Part shown: positions 1 to 8,204 of the stretch, piece by piece
Layout: every line of letters begins with the position of its first letter
Position numbering within the stretch: the first letter of the stretch is position 1
Assembly (NCBI GenBank): GCA_013359255.1
Contig: JABWCF010000009.1
Span: 62,001 to 126,000 of the forward strand
DNA: 64,000 bases
Direction: 5' to 3'
Origin: Flavobacteriales bacterium
GTDB lineage: Bacteria; Bacteroidota; Bacteroidia; Flavobacteriales_E; Vicingaceae
The notes under the pieces: generated by a model
What the model saw: the letters and a program-made list of their open reading frames with translations, nothing else
Database searches by the model: none
What the model was told of the DNA's origin: nothing
Position numbers and translations under genes: made by a program

Positions 1-2
1 AA

Positions 3-1718
3 TGGAACGTTGGCAGCAGGTTGAATGAACGTAAGAATAGTATTGAAACCGCTTATGTGTATCAGAACATCCATCAGAAATATCTTAACATCCGGTATTT
101 TGAATATTCCAACAATGGGAAAAGAAATAAGAATAAAAATCCTTATTCCTTAAAAGCTCCCGACACCAACACTAAATATTCCATTTGTTTGTACGGAGAA
201 CACTTGTTAAGCAAGGATAAAATCATTTGCCTTGTAGAAAGTGAAAAGACAGCGGTTATTGCCAGTTTCTTTTATCCTGATTTTGACTGGCTCGCTACCG
301 GGGGCAAAAGCGGATTAACCGATGAGAAAATTCATGTGCTGTTTAATCGTGAGATCTATTACCTGAATGATGCTGACAAGGCAGGAAATAAAAATAGTAC
401 CATTGATAAGCTAAAAGGCTATCAGCTCAATTTTAAGAAGATTGATTTATTTCCTGAGCGGAACGATGGTTATGATATAGCAGATGCAATCATTGATGGA
501 ATACAACCTGAAATAAAACCTTCAGCCAAAACCAATTCTGTAAGCTATGATCCGGTTCCTGTACAGGAAATACCCCATAAGAAAATTTCAGCCTTCGAGA
601 AAGTAGAAATCTATTTACGGGAGCTATACGACATACGCTATAATGAGGTTTCCAATGAAATAGAATGTAAAGCTAAAGAAGAAGGCGGGTTTAAAAAGAT
701 CAACGAAAACAATATTTACCGGCTCCTGCAACACAATAATATTAAATTTTCACTCACTAATATCTCTGCATTGTTACGTTCCGACTTTGTTCCGGTGCAT
801 AACCCATTTAAAGATTATTTTGAAGGCCTGCCTACATGGAATGAAGAAACAGGCGAGGATTATATAGATAAATTGTCCGGCTATATAAAAGCGAAAGATC
901 AGCAGCGCTTTAAAAAACATTTTAAAAAAATGCTGGTGCGCTGCATTGCCTGTGGCTTGATGGATGATGTATTCAACAAACATGCTTTTATCCTGGTGCA
1001 TGAAAAACAAAGCACGGGCAAAACAACCTTTTTGCGCTGGCTATGTCCTCCCGCTCTTAAAGAATATTATACCGATACATTTATTGTCGGAAAAGACGGG
1101 GAAATGAGCTTGTCGGATAATATGTTTATTAACCTGGATGAGTTATCTACTTTAAGTAAACAGGACATTAATGCGTTAAAAAGTTCTTTCAGCAGGGTAA
1201 ATATCCGCCAGCGAAGGCCATTTGACCGGACCATGTCCAATATGCCCAGGAGAGCCAATTTTGTGGGATCAACAAATAAGGCAGAATTTTTAACGGATGA
1301 AACCGGATCGGTACGTTGGCTCTGCTTTGAAATTGAGAGTATAGACTGGAATTACAATAAGGATATTGATATTAATTCAGTATGGAGCCAGGCCTATTCT
1401 CTCTTTAAAGCCGGATTCAAGTACGAATTAACCGCAGATGAGATCATAGAGAATGAAAGCGCCAATAAGGATTACCAGATCACTACAGCAGAAATAGAAT
1501 TAATACAAAAGCATTATACCCCTGCCACCAAGGAAAAACACGAAGTTTTTTACACTTCTTCAGAATTTCAAAATAATCTCTCGGAGAAATATCCTCACAT
1601 ACAATTGAACACGAATAATATTGGGAAAGCCCTCAAAGTATTAGGATTTATGAAAAGCCAAAAATACAATGGCAACTATCCGATTAAAGGATATTACAGC
1701 AATTTTATAACAGAATAA
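3..1718 (+). CDS. Toprim / VirE-type primase-helicase of a mobile element (5' partial)
   Basis: The reading frame is open from the window edge, so the true start lies upstream. Within the visible ~571 codons, a Toprim-like region comes first, with a conserved glutamate in CLVESEKTA and an acidic DxD motif in YYLNDADKAGNK. A VirE-family P-loop ATPase follows, with Walker A QSTGKTTFLRW near visible residue 330, Walker B MFINLDEL near 368 and a sensor/arginine-finger-like TGSVRWLCFEI near 428. Family knowledge: Toprim plus VirE proteins prime and unwind DNA of plasmids, phages and integrative elements in Bacteroidota. Here the gene directly precedes iteron-like repeats, which fits a replication initiator. 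Substrate and exact family are inferred. Confidence 0.85.
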   Translation, partial: WNVGSRLNERKNSIETAYVYQNIHQKYLNIRYFEYSNNGKRNKNKNPYSLKAPDTNTKYSICLYGEHLLSKDKIICLVESEKTAVIASFFYPDFDWLATGGKSGLTDEKIHVLFNREIYYLNDADKAGNKNSTIDKLKGYQLNFKKIDLFPERNDGYDIADAIIDGIQPEIKPSAKTNSVSYDPVPVQEIPHKKISAFEKVEIYLRELYDIRYNEVSNEIECKAKEEGGFKKINENNIYRLLQHNNIKFSLTNISALLRSDFVPVHNPFKDYFEGLPTWNEETGEDYIDKLSGYIKAKDQQRFKKHFKKMLVRCIACGLMDDVFNKHAFILVHEKQSTGKTTFLRWLCPPALKEYYTDTFIVGKDGEMSLSDNMFINLDELSTLSKQDINALKSSFSRVNIRQRRPFDRTMSNMPRRANFVGSTNKAEFLTDETGSVRWLCFEIESIDWNYNKDIDINSVWSQAYSLFKAGFKYELTADEIIENESANKDYQITTAEIELIQKHYTPATKEKHEVFYTSSEFQNNLSEKYPHIQLNTNNIGKALKVLGFMKSQKYNGNYPIKGYYSNFITE

Positions 1719-1730
1719 TTCCCCAATACA

Positions 1731-1875
1731 TTACTTCGTTACTAAATTCTTCTAAAAGCATTGACTTCACTGTATAATTAACTTAGTAATGTTATTCTTT
1801 CAACCTTACTAAGTACCTTACTTCATTACTAAAAAATCGCCCTCCATTTTGTTAGTAACGTAGTAAACTTAGTAG
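1731..1875. repeat. Iteron-like repeats downstream of the primase-helicase
   Basis: A 16-bp motif TTACTTCGTTACTAAA occurs at 1731-1746, again with one mismatch at 1818-1833, and inverted with two mismatches at 1851-1866. A shorter related motif TTACTAAGT occurs at 1806-1814 and inverted near 1781-1789 and 1867-1875 (the last with one change). Six related copies in 145 bp of non-coding DNA right after a replication gene resemble the iterons of a replication or partition origin. The function is inferred. Confidence 0.6.
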
Positions 1876-1943
1876 CTTACTTTACTGATATTTCAAAAAA
1901 TTATAAAGAGAATTTTTTCGTTTTGTAAAAAATAAAAAATCAA

Positions 1944-2003
1944 TTTACTTGAGTAAAAGAATTATAATAACTCGAGTAATTTATACGCATTTACTCGAGT
2001 AAA
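1944..2003. promoter_or_regulatory. Three palindromes at exact 23-bp spacing (candidate operator)
   Basis: TTTACTTGAGTAAA (1944-1957), core ACTCGAGT (1970-1977) and a perfect TTTACTCGAGTAAA (1990-2003) have centres at 1950/51, 1973/74 and 1996/97, i.e. 23 bp apart both times. A TATAAT hexamer (1963-1968) lies between the first two, and an AGGAG followed by an ATG lies just after the third. This looks like a cooperatively bound repressor operator controlling transcription to the right, into the hairpin array. The cognate regulator is not identifiable in the window. Confidence 0.6.
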
Positions 2004-2018
2004 AAGGAGATAATTTTT

Positions 2019-2135
2019 ATGAAATTTATTACAAACAGACCGGCAATTTTTTTTGCTAAATCTCTACAGTCCAAAAAACAAATCCCTTTAAGGTTTCGGA
2101 TTTTTCTCTTAAGGAGCTGCAAGAAAAGTCCTTAA
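2019..2135 (+). CDS. Possible 38-residue leader ORF running into the hairpin array
   Basis: ATG at 2019 is preceded at 9 nt by AGGAG (2005-2009), an unusually good ribosome-binding site for this genome, and sits directly after the triple palindrome. The frame codes a basic 38-residue peptide (start MKFITNRPAIFF) and ends in the TAA of the third array unit, so about its last 15 codons are array sequence. It may be a leader peptide, a regulatory short ORF or chance. No homolog is recognised. Confidence 0.25.
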   Translation: MKFITNRPAIFFAKSLQSKKQIPLRFRIFLLRSCKKSP

Positions 2136-2810
2136 GGCCTGCGTACAAATCTCTTAAGGGCTTGCGTAGAAAAGCCGTTAAGAGCGTCGTAGAAATCTCT
2201 TATAGGGCTTTCACAGGAAACTTCTAAAAGGCCGGTGTGTAGAAAGTTCTTATAAGGCCTTCGGATTTTTTTCCTTAAGGTGTTCGTACAAAAGTCCTAT
2301 AAGGCTTTCAAAAAAAATGTCCTATAAGGGCTCGCGAATTTTGCCCTTAAGGGCCCGAAAAAAAAGAGCCCTATAAGGCCTTTCAAAAAAAATGCTCTTA
2401 TAGGAGCTTAAAAAATAAAGTCCTTAAGGACCGAAATAAAAAATGTCCTATAAGAACCTTCAAATTTTAAGTCCTATAGGAAGTGAAAAACAAAAGCCCC
2501 TTATAGGAGGTCGTGTAGAAAGGTTCCTATAGGAGGTCGTGCAGAAAGGCTCCTTAAGGAGCTGTTGTAGAAAAGCTCTTATAGGAGCCTTTGTAGAAAA
2601 AAGCTCCTTAAGGACTGTTTTTATAAAATTGATCCTATATAGGACAAATTCTGCAATGCCTCCTAATAGGAGCTCGTGTAGAAAAGCTCTTTAAGGACTT
2701 GTTTTGCAAAAAGTGCCCTAATAGGAGCCTGTACAGAGAAAAGCCCCTTAAGAAAACATTTTGTGCAAATTGCCCTAATCAGGACTGTGTGTAAAAATGA
2801 TCCTTAAGAA
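2084..2810. repeat. Array of ~29 short variable palindromes (mini-hairpins) with increasing spacing
   Basis: About 29 units each hold a G/C stem of 3-5 bp around an A/T centre, joined by A-rich linkers often ending GTAGAAAG or GTACAAAAG. Clear examples: GCCCTTAAGGGC (2343-2354), GTCCTTAAGGAC (2420-2431), GCTCCTTAAGGAGC (2549-2562), GCTCTTATAGGAGC (2394-2407 and 2575-2588), CTCCTAATAGGAG (2660-2672), ATCCTATATAGGAC (2632-2645). The stem bases differ between units but stay complementary, and centres are TTAA, TATA, TATAA, TAATA or TATATA, i.e. loops of 4-6 nt. Centre spacing rises from about 22 bp on the left to about 28 bp on the right. It is not a CRISPR: no constant repeat and no cas genes. 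The first units (2084-2230) and the last are more degenerate. Function unknown; structured RNA, single-strand DNA hairpins or clustered protein sites are all possible. Confidence 0.85.
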
Positions 2811-3219
2811 ACTTTGCAATACTTATGTTTGATGAGCAAAATATTTTTTTGAAAGCCCAAATTGGAAAAGTTATTTTACCCGGTTAATTTTTTTTGAAAA
2901 AAGGCAGTCCCAAAAAAGCCAGGAAAATTGTTTTGATATTTTTACCTCTTGGAAAAATATTCTGTGAAAATCCGAATAAACAAAAAAAGATTATTGCGTG
3001 TTCTATTTCATTTCCGACTGAATCAGCTTTAATGGGTCTGTTTCAGGTTTTTGCTTGTAAAAATTAAAAAATGTTTTGTAAAAGTTGTGGCAAACTTTTC
3101 TGCCGAACTCCTTTATTTTCAATGCTTTGATTTTTTCTTTGTAGGAAGCCACCAAATTAGCTCTTGACTTTTGGCAAAACGTTGTTATATCTTTGTTGCA
3201 GAATTTATTTCAGCATGTC
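2811..3219. other. Gap between hairpin array and small-gene operon
   Basis: About 400 bp without a convincing gene. Two weak items: a 20-codon plus-strand ORF (2825-2887), and a minus-strand frame open from about 3209 to a TAG at 3003-3005 that reads like a lysine-rich protein C-terminus but has no ATG start. The minus frame would be transcribed towards the array. Neither is called as a gene. The promoter of the downstream operon must lie at the right end but no clear box is seen. Confidence 0.4.
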
Positions 3220-3429
3220 ATGAAAGAAAAAACAATCAAGGAAGAACTGCAAGAGGCACTCGACAGCCATAGTTCAGAGACTTATTCGCAAGGGTTAAAT
3301 CCCTATGTGAAAGGTGTTCTTTACATCGCCGGAGCAGTAGCCGTTGTGTGGACTTCTCAGTTTGTTTTCTCGGCTTTTGCCGGAGCAATTCGTGGGTTTA
3401 AAGACCTCAAGAAAAGTATCCATGAATGA
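3220..3429 (+). CDS. Small single-pass membrane protein upstream of recombinase
   Basis: 69 residues from ATG 3220; a TTG at 3193 would add nine residues but has no better context. A charged, helical N-terminus (about residues 1-30) precedes one hydrophobic segment (about 32-53, GVLYIAGAVAVVW...), then a short basic tail. The stop overlaps the start of the next gene (ATGAATGA), so the two are translationally coupled and co-transcribed with the recombinase at 3600. I do not recognise the family. The hydrophobic profile resembles small holin-like or phage accessory proteins, but this is only a resemblance. Confidence 0.55.
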   Translation: MKEKTIKEELQEALDSHSSETYSQGLNPYVKGVLYIAGAVAVVWTSQFVFSAFAGAIRGFKDLKKSIHE

Positions 3430-5724: not shown

Positions 5725-6549
5725 ATGAAAAAACGGCATCCATACCATGCTCTTGATAAATGGGTAATAGAACTGCAATCTGAAGGCAGGCATAGTGTTT
5801 CATTAGAGGAACTAAGAAAGAAGTTTCCTAAAAAGAGCGAGGCTGCCCTTAAGCTGAACATTAACCGCCTCATAAAAAAGAGAAGTATAGTTTCCGTTTA
5901 CAGGGGCTATTATCTTCTTATTCCTCCCCAATATCATAGATGGGGTATCTTACCTGCTGTGCTTTTTATTGACGGATTAATGAAATACCTGGGCAGGAAA
6001 TACTATGTAAGTCTTTTGAGCGCAGCGGCCCAACATGGAGCCGCTCATCAACAACCTCAGGAATATTTTGTTATTATTCCTCCACCGGCCCTTAAGCTGA
6101 CGGTTAAAAGGGGGATAAAAATAAATTTTATCAATAAAAAGAAGGTTGACATGCGGTTTGTGGAAAAAAGAAAAACGGCAACGGGCTATTACAATGTTTC
6201 TACCCCGGAAATGACGGCAGCAGATCTTGTTTTTTATGCGAAAAGGGTTGGCTGGATGAACCGTGTGGCAACCGTATTGGCTGAACTGGCCGATGAGATG
6301 AAACCTGAAAAGCTGAATGTTAGCTTTGTGAAAGCCATCGGGGTAGCTACCTTACAAAAATTAGGATATTTACTGGACGAAGTATTGGAAAAAAAAGAAT
6401 TGGCAGAGGCTCTTTATAAGGCTGCCAGGAAAGCGAGAATATCTTTTTTCACAATACCGCTTATGAGAGAAGCCGGGCGCAAAAGATATGCGGTCAGCAA
6501 AAAATGGAAAATAATAGATAATGTTCAGATTGAAATAGACGACTTGTAA
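5725..6549 (+). CDS. AbiEi-type (type IV) antitoxin / abortive-infection regulator, orphan
   Basis: 274 residues. An N-terminal winged-helix region (about 1-75: EELRKKFPKKSEAALKLNIN... then YRGYYLLIP) is followed by the AbiEi C-terminal fold (YYVSLLSAAAQHGAAHQQP, VSTPEMTAADLVFYAKRVG). Family knowledge: AbiEi represses its operon and neutralises the nucleotidyltransferase toxin AbiEii. No AbiEii follows; the next gene, 20 bp downstream, is a serine recombinase. So it is either an orphan, has a partner elsewhere, or has been taken over as a regulator of the recombinase. The start ATG is well placed after an A/T-rich leader. Confidence 0.75.
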   Translation: MKKRHPYHALDKWVIELQSEGRHSVSLEELRKKFPKKSEAALKLNINRLIKKRSIVSVYRGYYLLIPPQYHRWGILPAVLFIDGLMKYLGRKYYVSLLSAAAQHGAAHQQPQEYFVIIPPPALKLTVKRGIKINFINKKKVDMRFVEKRKTATGYYNVSTPEMTAADLVFYAKRVGWMNRVATVLAELADEMKPEKLNVSFVKAIGVATLQKLGYLLDEVLEKKELAEALYKAARKARISFFTIPLMREAGRKRYAVSKKWKIIDNVQIEIDDL

Positions 6550-6569: not shown

Positions 6570-8171
6570 ATGAAAAAAATTCATCAATTCCAGCAGTTTG
6601 CCAAAGGTAAGGTTAATCAGGCTTTGCAAGGCAATAATAATGCGGTGATCTATACCCGTGTATCATCCAAGGAGCAGGCGGACACTAATCAGAGCCTTGA
6701 AACTCAGAGAAAATATTGTACAGAGTATGGTATAAAAAACAACCTGAACATATTGGGATTTTTCGGAGGAACTTATGAAAGTGCAAAGACAGATGAACGC
6801 AATGAGTTCAACCGGATGATAAAATTTCTAAAAAATTCAAAAGAAAAAACTTCGTGCATTCTTGTATATAGTCTTGACCGTTTCAGCCGTTCGGGAGAGA
6901 ATGCCATTTATATTTCTTCACAGCTTAAAAAGCAAGGAGTTACTATTGTTTCCGTAACACAGCCTATTGATGTTTCCACACATGCCGGAGTATTGCAACA
7001 GAACATACAATTTATTTTCAGTAAATATGACAATGATTTGAGAATGCAGAAATGTGTAGATGGTATGCGGGAAAAATTAAAGAGAGGAGAATGGTTAGGC
7101 GCTGCTCCTACCGGGTATTCCTATGATCGCACTCACGGTGGAAAAGAACAGAAAATAATTATCAACGAATATGGTAAAGCGCTTCAAAAGGCTTTTCAGT
7201 GGAGGCTGGAAGGACATTCCAATCCACAGATTGTTGAAAAACTAAAAGCATTGGGATTAACTCTCCCATTTCAAAGGATCAGCGAAATATTTAGAAATCC
7301 TTTTTACTGCGGACTGATTTCGCATAATATGCTGAACGGAGAGATAGCGGAAGGAAAGCACCCTGCACTTGTTTCCAAAGAAACGTTCCTGAAAGTATTC
7401 CAATTGAATAAACGGGGAGGTTATAAGCAGAAAAAAGAAAATGAGCATCTTCCATTGAAGCTATTCGTTAAATGTGAAAAATGTGAATCACCTTTTACAG
7501 GTTATATTGTAAAAAAGAAGAACATCTATTATTACAAGTGCAATGATGTAAAATGTCATTGCAACAGGAGTGTAAAAACCATGCACAATAACTTTGTTCA
7601 TCTTCTTGATAACAAATCAGCGGATTCTACTTACAGCCAAGTTTATAAAAAAGCGTTGGAATATATTTACAACAAAGAAACTTCATCCGGCAAAACCAAG
7701 CAGGAGGCTTTTTCTGTACAGTTAAATGAGATAAAAGAGAAGCTCTACAAAACGGAAGAGAGATTTGCTTGTGGAGAAATTGACCGGGATATTTATAACA
7801 AGGTGTCTGAAAAATTTAAGTCAGAAATAAGGACAATAGTGGAGGATATTGAAAAATCAGCCTTAAAATTATCTAACCCGGAAAAGGCGATAAGTTTTAT
7901 AGTGGATTTGTCCTCAAAACTCTCTACTACGTGGAATTTGAACGATTATTCTCAAAAACAGAATGTTCAGAAATTACTGTTTCCTGATGGTATTCGGTAC
8001 AATATTGAAAATGACGAATATCTAACTTCCAGATGGGTTTCTCCTATCGTTGTAACTTCTTATCTGTCAGCGACTTTAAAGGAAAAGAAAAACGGGATAC
8101 CAGATGATTTATCTGAAATATCCCGTTTAGTAGCGAGGGGGGGATTTGAACCCCCGACCTCAGGGTTATGA
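6570..8171 (+). CDS. Large serine recombinase 2, reading frame entering tRNA antisense
   Basis: 533 residues. The same architecture as the recombinase at 3600: catalytic Ser in YTRVSSKEQ (about residue 33), YSLDRFSRSG, a recombinase domain (FRNPFYCGLISHN), a zinc ribbon with CEKC and CNDVKC, and a coiled coil. It follows the AbiEi-type gene by 20 bp, probably as one operon. The last ~30 codons are not typical: they are encoded by a hairpin (8091-8129) and the reverse of the tRNA-Met 3' half, giving the well-known spurious-looking ending VARGGFEPPTSGL, and the stop lies in the anticodon-loop region. The native C-terminus is probably different in the excised form. Likely integrase of the element. 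Confidence 0.88.
   Translation: MKKIHQFQQFAKGKVNQALQGNNNAVIYTRVSSKEQADTNQSLETQRKYCTEYGIKNNLNILGFFGGTYESAKTDERNEFNRMIKFLKNSKEKTSCILVYSLDRFSRSGENAIYISSQLKKQGVTIVSVTQPIDVSTHAGVLQQNIQFIFSKYDNDLRMQKCVDGMREKLKRGEWLGAAPTGYSYDRTHGGKEQKIIINEYGKALQKAFQWRLEGHSNPQIVEKLKALGLTLPFQRISEIFRNPFYCGLISHNMLNGEIAEGKHPALVSKETFLKVFQLNKRGGYKQKKENEHLPLKLFVKCEKCESPFTGYIVKKKNIYYYKCNDVKCHCNRSVKTMHNNFVHLLDNKSADSTYSQVYKKALEYIYNKETSSGKTKQEAFSVQLNEIKEKLYKTEERFACGEIDRDIYNKVSEKFKSEIRTIVEDIEKSALKLSNPEKAISFIVDLSSKLSTTWNLNDYSQKQNVQKLLFPDGIRYNIENDEYLTSRWVSPIVVTSYLSATLKEKKNGIPDDLSEISRLVARGGFEPPTSGL
8091..8129 (-). terminator. Terminator of tRNA-Met
   Basis: The arms AAACGGGATA (8091-8100) and TATCCCGTTT (8118-8127) enclose a second inner stem (CAGAT/ATCTG). 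Read on the minus strand the hairpin follows the tRNA 3' end by a few bases and is followed by TTTTTCTTTTCC, a classic intrinsic terminator. It also lies inside the reading frame of the plus-strand recombinase. Whether it belongs to the host or to the element decides where the boundary is. Confidence 0.75.
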
Positions 8172-8204
8172 ATCCTGCGCTCTAACCACCTGAGCTACCT
8201 CGCC
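8131..8204 (-). tRNA. tRNA-Met (CAT), elongator type
   Basis: 74 nt on the minus strand, 5' end GGCGAGGTAGCTCAG at 8204. It has a D-arm, an anticodon loop TTCATAA with anticodon CAT (8168-8170), a T-arm GGGGGTTCAAATCCCCC, and a 7-bp acceptor stem whose first pair is G-U, with discriminator A. CCA is not encoded. The absence of the initiator-type mismatch (C1-A72) argues for elongator tRNA-Met. A tRNA-Ile read by lysidine-modified CAU is the alternative. It is the apparent integration target of the element to the left. Confidence 0.95.

Follow-up and report, generated by a model that had tools for sequence, protein, structure and literature searches.

What makes the distance between neighbouring palindromes widen, unit by unit, along a row of them in the genome of a Flavobacteriales bacterium? 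The row lies in a stretch of 64,000 nucleotides (contig JABWCF010000009.1, positions 62,001 to 126,000), referred to here as the window (W), and its features are collected in Table 1. Units were called with a purpose-built scoring that seeks a YY-T..A-RR core of inner length 3-6 and chains the cores by spacing. This gave 29 units at 2089-2806, each with a near-palindromic core of the form YYT-W..W-ARR, and a scoring variant without pairing terms again gave 29. Since a three-unit pattern with 8 matches in the window's genome gave one lone match in all the remaining 394 genomes of a draw of 395 across the phylum, the array lies beyond chance.

The centre-to-centre spacing begins at 21.5, 23, 22, 23, 23.5 and 25 bp and ends at 29, 28.5, 29 and 27 bp. 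Against unit number it rises by 0.226 bp per unit (r2 0.79, Spearman 0.91), with a permutation p of 0.0002 in 5000 shuffles. An earlier note on this DNA, which used TTAA centres only, had described such a rise and considered it unlikely to arise by random decay; its averages, recomputed from the 29 centres, came to 23.7, 24, 25.7, 26, 27, 27.5 and 28.4 bp, and the widening is confirmed as real and non-random. It is carried by linker length (rho 0.89), the mean linker growing from 14.9 bp in the first eight to 19.1 bp in the last eight, while core length is flat (rho 0.07). For the window alone, BIC prefers a straight line (6.1) over one step (27.0) or two steps (17.5).

Table 1 Features of the window around the palindrome array.
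Feature	Position	Strand	Remarks
VapE/DUF6371 primase-like gene, 3' part	1-1718	+	gene starts 325 bases before the window begins; L003:15676-17718
Repeats of the TTACTTCGTTACTAA / ACTTAGTAA kind	1731-1880		behind the primase gene
Three ACTYGAGT palindromes	1943-2004		at 1947, 1970 and 1993, exactly 23 bp apart; conserved in four window-type elements
Array of 29 near-palindromic units	2084-2815	+	spacing from ~22 up to 29 bp; array has an orientation, its linkers being A-rich on the + strand
Centres of units 1-10	2089, 2110.5, 2133.5, 2155.5, 2178.5, 2202, 2227, 2252.5, 2276.5, 2300		
Centres of units 11-20	2325, 2348.5, 2374, 2400.5, 2425.5, 2451, 2476.5, 2503.5, 2529.5, 2555.5		
Centres of units 21-29	2581.5, 2609.5, 2638.5, 2666, 2692, 2721, 2749.5, 2778.5, 2805.5		
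Short-linker block	2084-2202	+	mean spacing 22.6 bp, 5 spacings
Middle block	2202-2582	+	mean spacing 25.3 bp, 15 spacings; rising internally, rho 0.69, p 0.004
Long-linker block	2582-2810	+	mean spacing 28.0 bp, 8 spacings
Non-coding flank, array to small ORFs	2816-3219	+	85% identical to L179
Two small ORFs, 69 and 70 aa	3220-3634	+	77-90% identical in three close relatives
Large serine recombinase 1, 506 aa	3600-5120	+	
AbiEi-like antitoxin gene	5725-6549	+	between the two recombinases
Large serine recombinase 2, 533 aa	6570-8171	+	43% identical to recombinase 1 of relatives; 3' end overlaps tRNA-Met
tRNA-Met	8130-8204	-	presumed edge of the element

Counting the window's own, ten distinct arrays were found: W, L179 (contig CALMVZ010000024.1, the same as L091), L022, L023 (MEPB01000031.1), L024, L025, L138, L139 (JAUXZS010000061.1), L169 (JAURXZ010000001.1) and L259; L138 and L148 are one array stretch in two records (JAGVJJ010000011.1 and JAUXSA010000132.1). 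Named records among the carriers are Bacteroidota, Bacteroidetes or Bacteroidia MAGs. BLAST of 100 related genomes gave a second array (that of L004, listed here as L025), which served as query for a class-wide BLAST; 15 of 395 genomes had a match, and 5 held arrays after inspection, the other ten having been dropped by a motif-density scan, with one of them also read. The three-unit DNA pattern, run over the genome contigs, returned at least 119 stretches; a chain detector was run on these 119 and 15 of them were read, so that further arrays may exist among these contigs, and the detector had missed the L139 and L169 arrays. On viral contigs one pattern scan gave 23 stretches with a longest unit chain of 6, none judged an array; another pattern scan and protein scans of viral contigs found nothing, and two arrays used as BLASTN queries matched nothing in phages or plasmids. 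A different row of CCTATAGG-like units in Aquimarina macrocephali (L163:3539-4301), with no P2 match, is perhaps an independent palindrome array. A literature search without full texts found no such palindrome arrays, and the gene-and-array module described below, well conserved as it is, is apparently undescribed.

The carriers fall into two types. Type A (W, L179, L022 and L023) has the ACTYGAGT palindromes, in some elements as two exact copies and one variant, followed by the array, by a pair of small ORFs and by a large serine recombinase that is 86-89% identical to the window's. A second recombinase (90% identical) is also present in W, L022 and L023, and the VapE primase in W, L179 and L022. 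In the window (6570-8204) and in L022 (7533-9167) the recombinase 2 gene overlaps the 3' end of tRNA-Met; a direct repeat of the tRNA end, marking the other edge of the element, was looked for and not found. L022 has a Fic-domain gene in place of AbiEi between its recombinases, and a separate AbiEi-AbiEii pair lies upstream on the window's island (L003:12727-14390). In type B (L024, L025, L138, L139, L169 and L259) the array lies close upstream of a giant ORF, which in L024, the one scanned, carries DUF6908 and N6-methylase domains; in L025 SNF2 and helicase domains come next.

Comparison of the slope across these homologous arrays, which the earlier note had proposed, divided them. The gradient is repeated in the close relatives L179 (rho 0.79) and L023 (rho 0.90; p 0.0002 for both), and L022 has no significant gradient (rho 0.24, p 0.17). 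No clear gradient emerged in the six more distant arrays: rho was 0.15 in L025, -0.49 in L024, -0.30 in L169, -0.25 in L139, and 0.47 and 0.00 in L148 and L138, the last two being one array with units called in two cut-outs, and all of these values are non-significant; L259 gave 0.64 (p 0.03), but units at one of its ends are doubtful. Relatives of constant spacing, which the earlier note had regarded as telling against its gradient, thus exist in the sense of six distant arrays (L259 being doubtful) and L022 without a significant gradient, and L179 and L023 do not belong among them. A step model with two steps favoured beats the line in L179 (BIC -1.9 vs 2.7) and in L022 (13.6 vs 53.4); in L023 the line beats the steps (-4.9 vs -1.8).

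The array of L022 lacks the gradient because a block of 25-26 bp units occupies its near end, after which the spacing returns to 23 bp before a 28-bp end. Its linkers 2-10 match linkers 19-27 of L179 with a similarity of up to 0.94, though at the opposite end, and the last units of the window's long-linker block align with the last units of L179, L023 and L022. Units at the near end of one array thus match the middle units of another, and spacing therefore follows unit ancestry more than position. Consistent with this, where linkers share long ungapped matches although their relative positions are distant, their spacing differs by 0.96 bp (n=12), vs 2.8 bp for unrelated linkers. Over all linker pairs, the difference in spacing is predicted by position (partial correlation 0.35) but hardly by similarity (-0.04), which we attribute to most linkers being too diverged to have a detectable relative. 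Spectral clustering of the linkers into four groups gave mean spacings of 23.7-25.1 bp and did not reproduce the three blocks; the groups differ little in spacing, and the subfamilies therefore rest on the step fits and on the linkers matched between arrays.

Of the two origins that the earlier note had suggested for the rise, directional growth at one end found no support: the segments by which arrays differ are internal and 2-5 units long (a 5-unit, 116-bp segment is repeated in L025 and a 4-unit segment in L022, and L169 has two units absent from L139), and neighbouring linkers are not graded by similarity. Nor did a helical phase rotating along the array, since 11 of 12 phase tests at 10, 10.5 and 11 bp resembled shuffled spacings, the exception being L023 at 10.0 bp (fraction 0.031). 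We propose instead that the array consists of unit subfamilies, each with its own linker length (~23, 25-26 and 27-28 bp centre to centre), and that it would change through internal duplication, deletion and relocation of segments of 2-5 units. The order of the subfamilies, rather than position as such or growth at one end, would then produce the rise, as a staircase blurred by drift; the slope within the window's middle block (Table 1) is left over by this model, and the better fit of a line in the window and L023 likewise speaks against it. What we observe directly is the gradient, the fact that two relatives repeat it, its disruption in a third by units resembling middle units of another array, the conservation in one species pair and the co-occurrence with the small proteins described below; the relocation of units is our inference. 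The gradient would accordingly be an inherited mosaic of unit subfamilies, and the array itself a selected cis-element of a mobile-island module made up of an XRE repressor, two small proteins P1 and P2, and the array; we give this reading a probability of roughly 0.6. If it is right, a spacing gradient becomes a marker of unit ancestry from which the construction of such arrays can be read.

The module emerged from an all-against-all protein comparison, in which two small proteins and a divergent HTH gene were common to type A and type B loci. P1 has about 100 aa; P2 is hydrophobic and has 52-74 aa, typically ~55. The XRE repressor, P1 and P2 lie near 9 of the 10 arrays, the exception being L025 with only a P1 some 60 kb off on the same contig; in the window's genome, P1, P2 and the HTH gene are found at L003:11685-12574, 4.3-3.4 kb upstream of where the window begins. 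In L023 the HTH gene has a match to HTH_3; the XRE gene was named by position in L139, L169 and L259, and in L139 and L169 also by sequence. P2 is ~200-300 bp from the array in L023, L138, L169 and L259, and other genes separate the two in W, L022, L179, L024 and L139. No match to P1 was found in Pfam, PHROGs, NCBIfam or PADLOC, and P2 had only a weak Pfam match below the cut-off. The predicted structure of P1 has four helices (mean pLDDT 67) and gave nothing at E<=0.001 with Foldseek against PDB; tblastn of P1 against plasmids and phages, and of P2 against plasmids, gave no match.

P1 occurs in 18 of 395 class genomes, including all 5 with arrays, a co-occurrence with a hypergeometric probability of ~1e-7 if both draws are the same genomes, as their handles suggest, and kinship is ignored. 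A P2 search gave matches in 5 of 87 genomes of one order, and all five have an array, that of L259 being new through this search and the other four known beforehand; the 82 genomes without a P2 match lay outside the array search. A P2 profile run on the loci then in hand, a biased set, had strong matches only at array loci. The small module may thus be usable to predict further arrays. Weak P2-like hydrophobic small proteins (E ~1e-4) were also seen in L024 (~17.8 kb), L025 (~2.1 kb) and L169, in L024 and L025 beside an HTH_36 gene. Other genomes (L231-L250) have P1 next to an XRE gene, as seen in L245, but without array or P2, so P1-XRE looks like a wider small cassette.

Several other explanations were weighed against an inherited mosaic. 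Graded spacing might be a direct functional design, needed by a process that runs along the array; the rise is smooth in the window and L023, and its direction relative to neighbouring genes is the same in three of the four close elements. We consider this improbable, given that L022 keeps the array, the recombinases and the module yet has no gradient, that the distant arrays show no clear one, and that the phases look like those of shuffled order. Even less probable is a neutral, decaying tandem repeat, or minisatellite, with no function. Array size and order do vary between relatives, and between L024 and L169 the array is less alike (85.0%) than the start of the giant gene (91.7%). Between L138 and L259, on the other hand, the array is 84.8% identical over 243 aligned bases, whereas the giant gene reaches 64.4% in its first 2.4 kb, P1 58.6% and the stretch separating array and P2 64.5%; the order of the array is kept unit by unit; with flanks included, differences amount to 23% outside cores and stems vs 12.6% in cores. 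Since L024 and L169 show the opposite and the type A arrays are rearranged (between flanks 85-90% identical), strong conservation, with the array better kept than the adjoining genes, is established for this one species pair. Together with the constant company of P1 and P2, the L138/L259 alignment largely refutes the minisatellite reading. The array could also be the iterons of a replication origin served by the VapE/DUF6371 primase, whose gene it adjoins in W, L179 and L022. This, too, we judge very unlikely: BLAST of loci of up to 20 kb found no primase match in L023, L024, L025, L138 or L148 (L139, L169 and L259 lay outside the comparison), and among 13 primase-bearing loci a unit chain of at least 9 occurs only in the window's locus and in L192, which is the L022 element. 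Repeats of the TTACTAAGT kind (window 1731-1880) follow VapE/DUF6371 primase genes also where there is no array and are candidate origin iterons; because a similar stretch stands behind a distant primase relative without an array (L193), they are the better origin candidate.

As to what the array does, it may be a putative folded nucleic-acid element or a putative protein-binding DNA array, both roles being unproven, and its fold, transcription, binding partner and function are inferred. Our best guess, a tentative one, is that the tandem palindromes fold into hairpins, either within a transcript or within a single strand of DNA, and that the module's proteins sense or bind them. In type A the folding energy is far below that of dinucleotide shuffles on either strand (z -5.4 to -9.2); in type B z is -2.8 to -5.5 on the minus and -1.2 to -4.0 on the plus strand (25 shuffles each throughout). 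Aligned folds are also below column shuffles, as any palindrome would give. A half-site gap that varies in length also speaks for a fold. The linkers flanking a unit tend to be reverse complements (all 10 arrays exceed the mean of the permutations, 5 of them with p<0.05), and pairing across linkers, as linker-register hairpins, gave no signal. Against a fold, the wobble bias G.T:A.C is opposite in strand between type A (96:65) and type B (21:47), counted in both directions and hence non-independent. Rfam 15 had no match over the array at gathering score, with three chance-level matches (E<=1), far below that score, in 1700-3300.

Only slightly less likely, in our view, is that the array acts as a double-stranded DNA platform of 12-38 operator- or centromere-like sites for XRE, P1 or another protein, in which linker length matters little and which would serve the regulation, partition or organisation of the element. 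The half-sites vary independently: units called without pairing terms show no covariation beyond the consensus, and double changes (24 vs 20 expected and 16 vs 9.8) show no clear compensatory excess. Conservation is highest at the T and the A closest to the centre, as it would be in a recognised sequence; another palindrome set, with exact 23-bp spacing, adjoins the array, and the module includes an HTH_3 regulator. Rigid dimers or cooperative binding, however, sit awkwardly with a half-site gap that varies by 1-4 nt and with the lack of helical phase; the linkers are fairly conserved too (the L138/L259 differences given above), and visual inspection of the XRE-P1 interval in L003 and L023 showed no core motif. 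Returning to hairpins, a bolder form of that guess would take the whole array, with its 12-38 units, as one giant RNA (or single-strand DNA) of tandem hairpins. Together with P1 and P2, and with XRE as the repressor, it would make up a control or defence module, so far undescribed, on mobile islands of Bacteroidota that are unrelated to each other: one kind carries paired serine recombinases, the other giant anti-restriction-like methylase/helicase operons. In this full extent we hold the guess to be rather unlikely.

Among known systems, plasmid iteron and centromere-like arrays resemble the present ones in having tandem short sites of about two helical turns close to genes for replication or maintenance. 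The repeats of iterons are direct and near-identical, whereas the palindromic units here are degenerate and vary in centre and linker, and no gene for replication or partition proved common to all arrays. Nor does the array always stand beside a replication gene, as a plasmid iteron would: a VapE-type primase adjoins 3 of 10 arrays (L139, L169 and L259 being outside the BLAST), and relatives of the primase occur without an array. CRISPR arrays likewise place many short palindromic repeats in a row with ~13-20 bp between cores; here, by contrast, there is no constant repeat, tandem-repeat matches being 62-82% instead of near-identical, and linkers are related between arrays rather than unique spacers. 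No cas genes were found in the subset of neighbouring ORFs given to Pfam. The Bacteroidetes TraG-family ATPase TIGR03783, taken as the criterion for CTnDOT-type conjugative elements, was found in 0 of 10 array genomes searched. Its absence also distinguishes the arrays from Frpo-type single-stranded promoters of plasmid leading regions, where hairpins lie upstream of anti-restriction genes; the distant arrays similarly sit directly upstream of a giant methylase-like gene, but with tens of units in place of a promoter hairpin region. The RNA repeats of Type III toxin-antitoxin systems (ToxIN) are alike in being tandem hairpin-like repeats near a small gene; they differ in that no recognised toxin was found here, P1 being without a PADLOC match, and in scale, a few units in ToxIN against 12-38 here.
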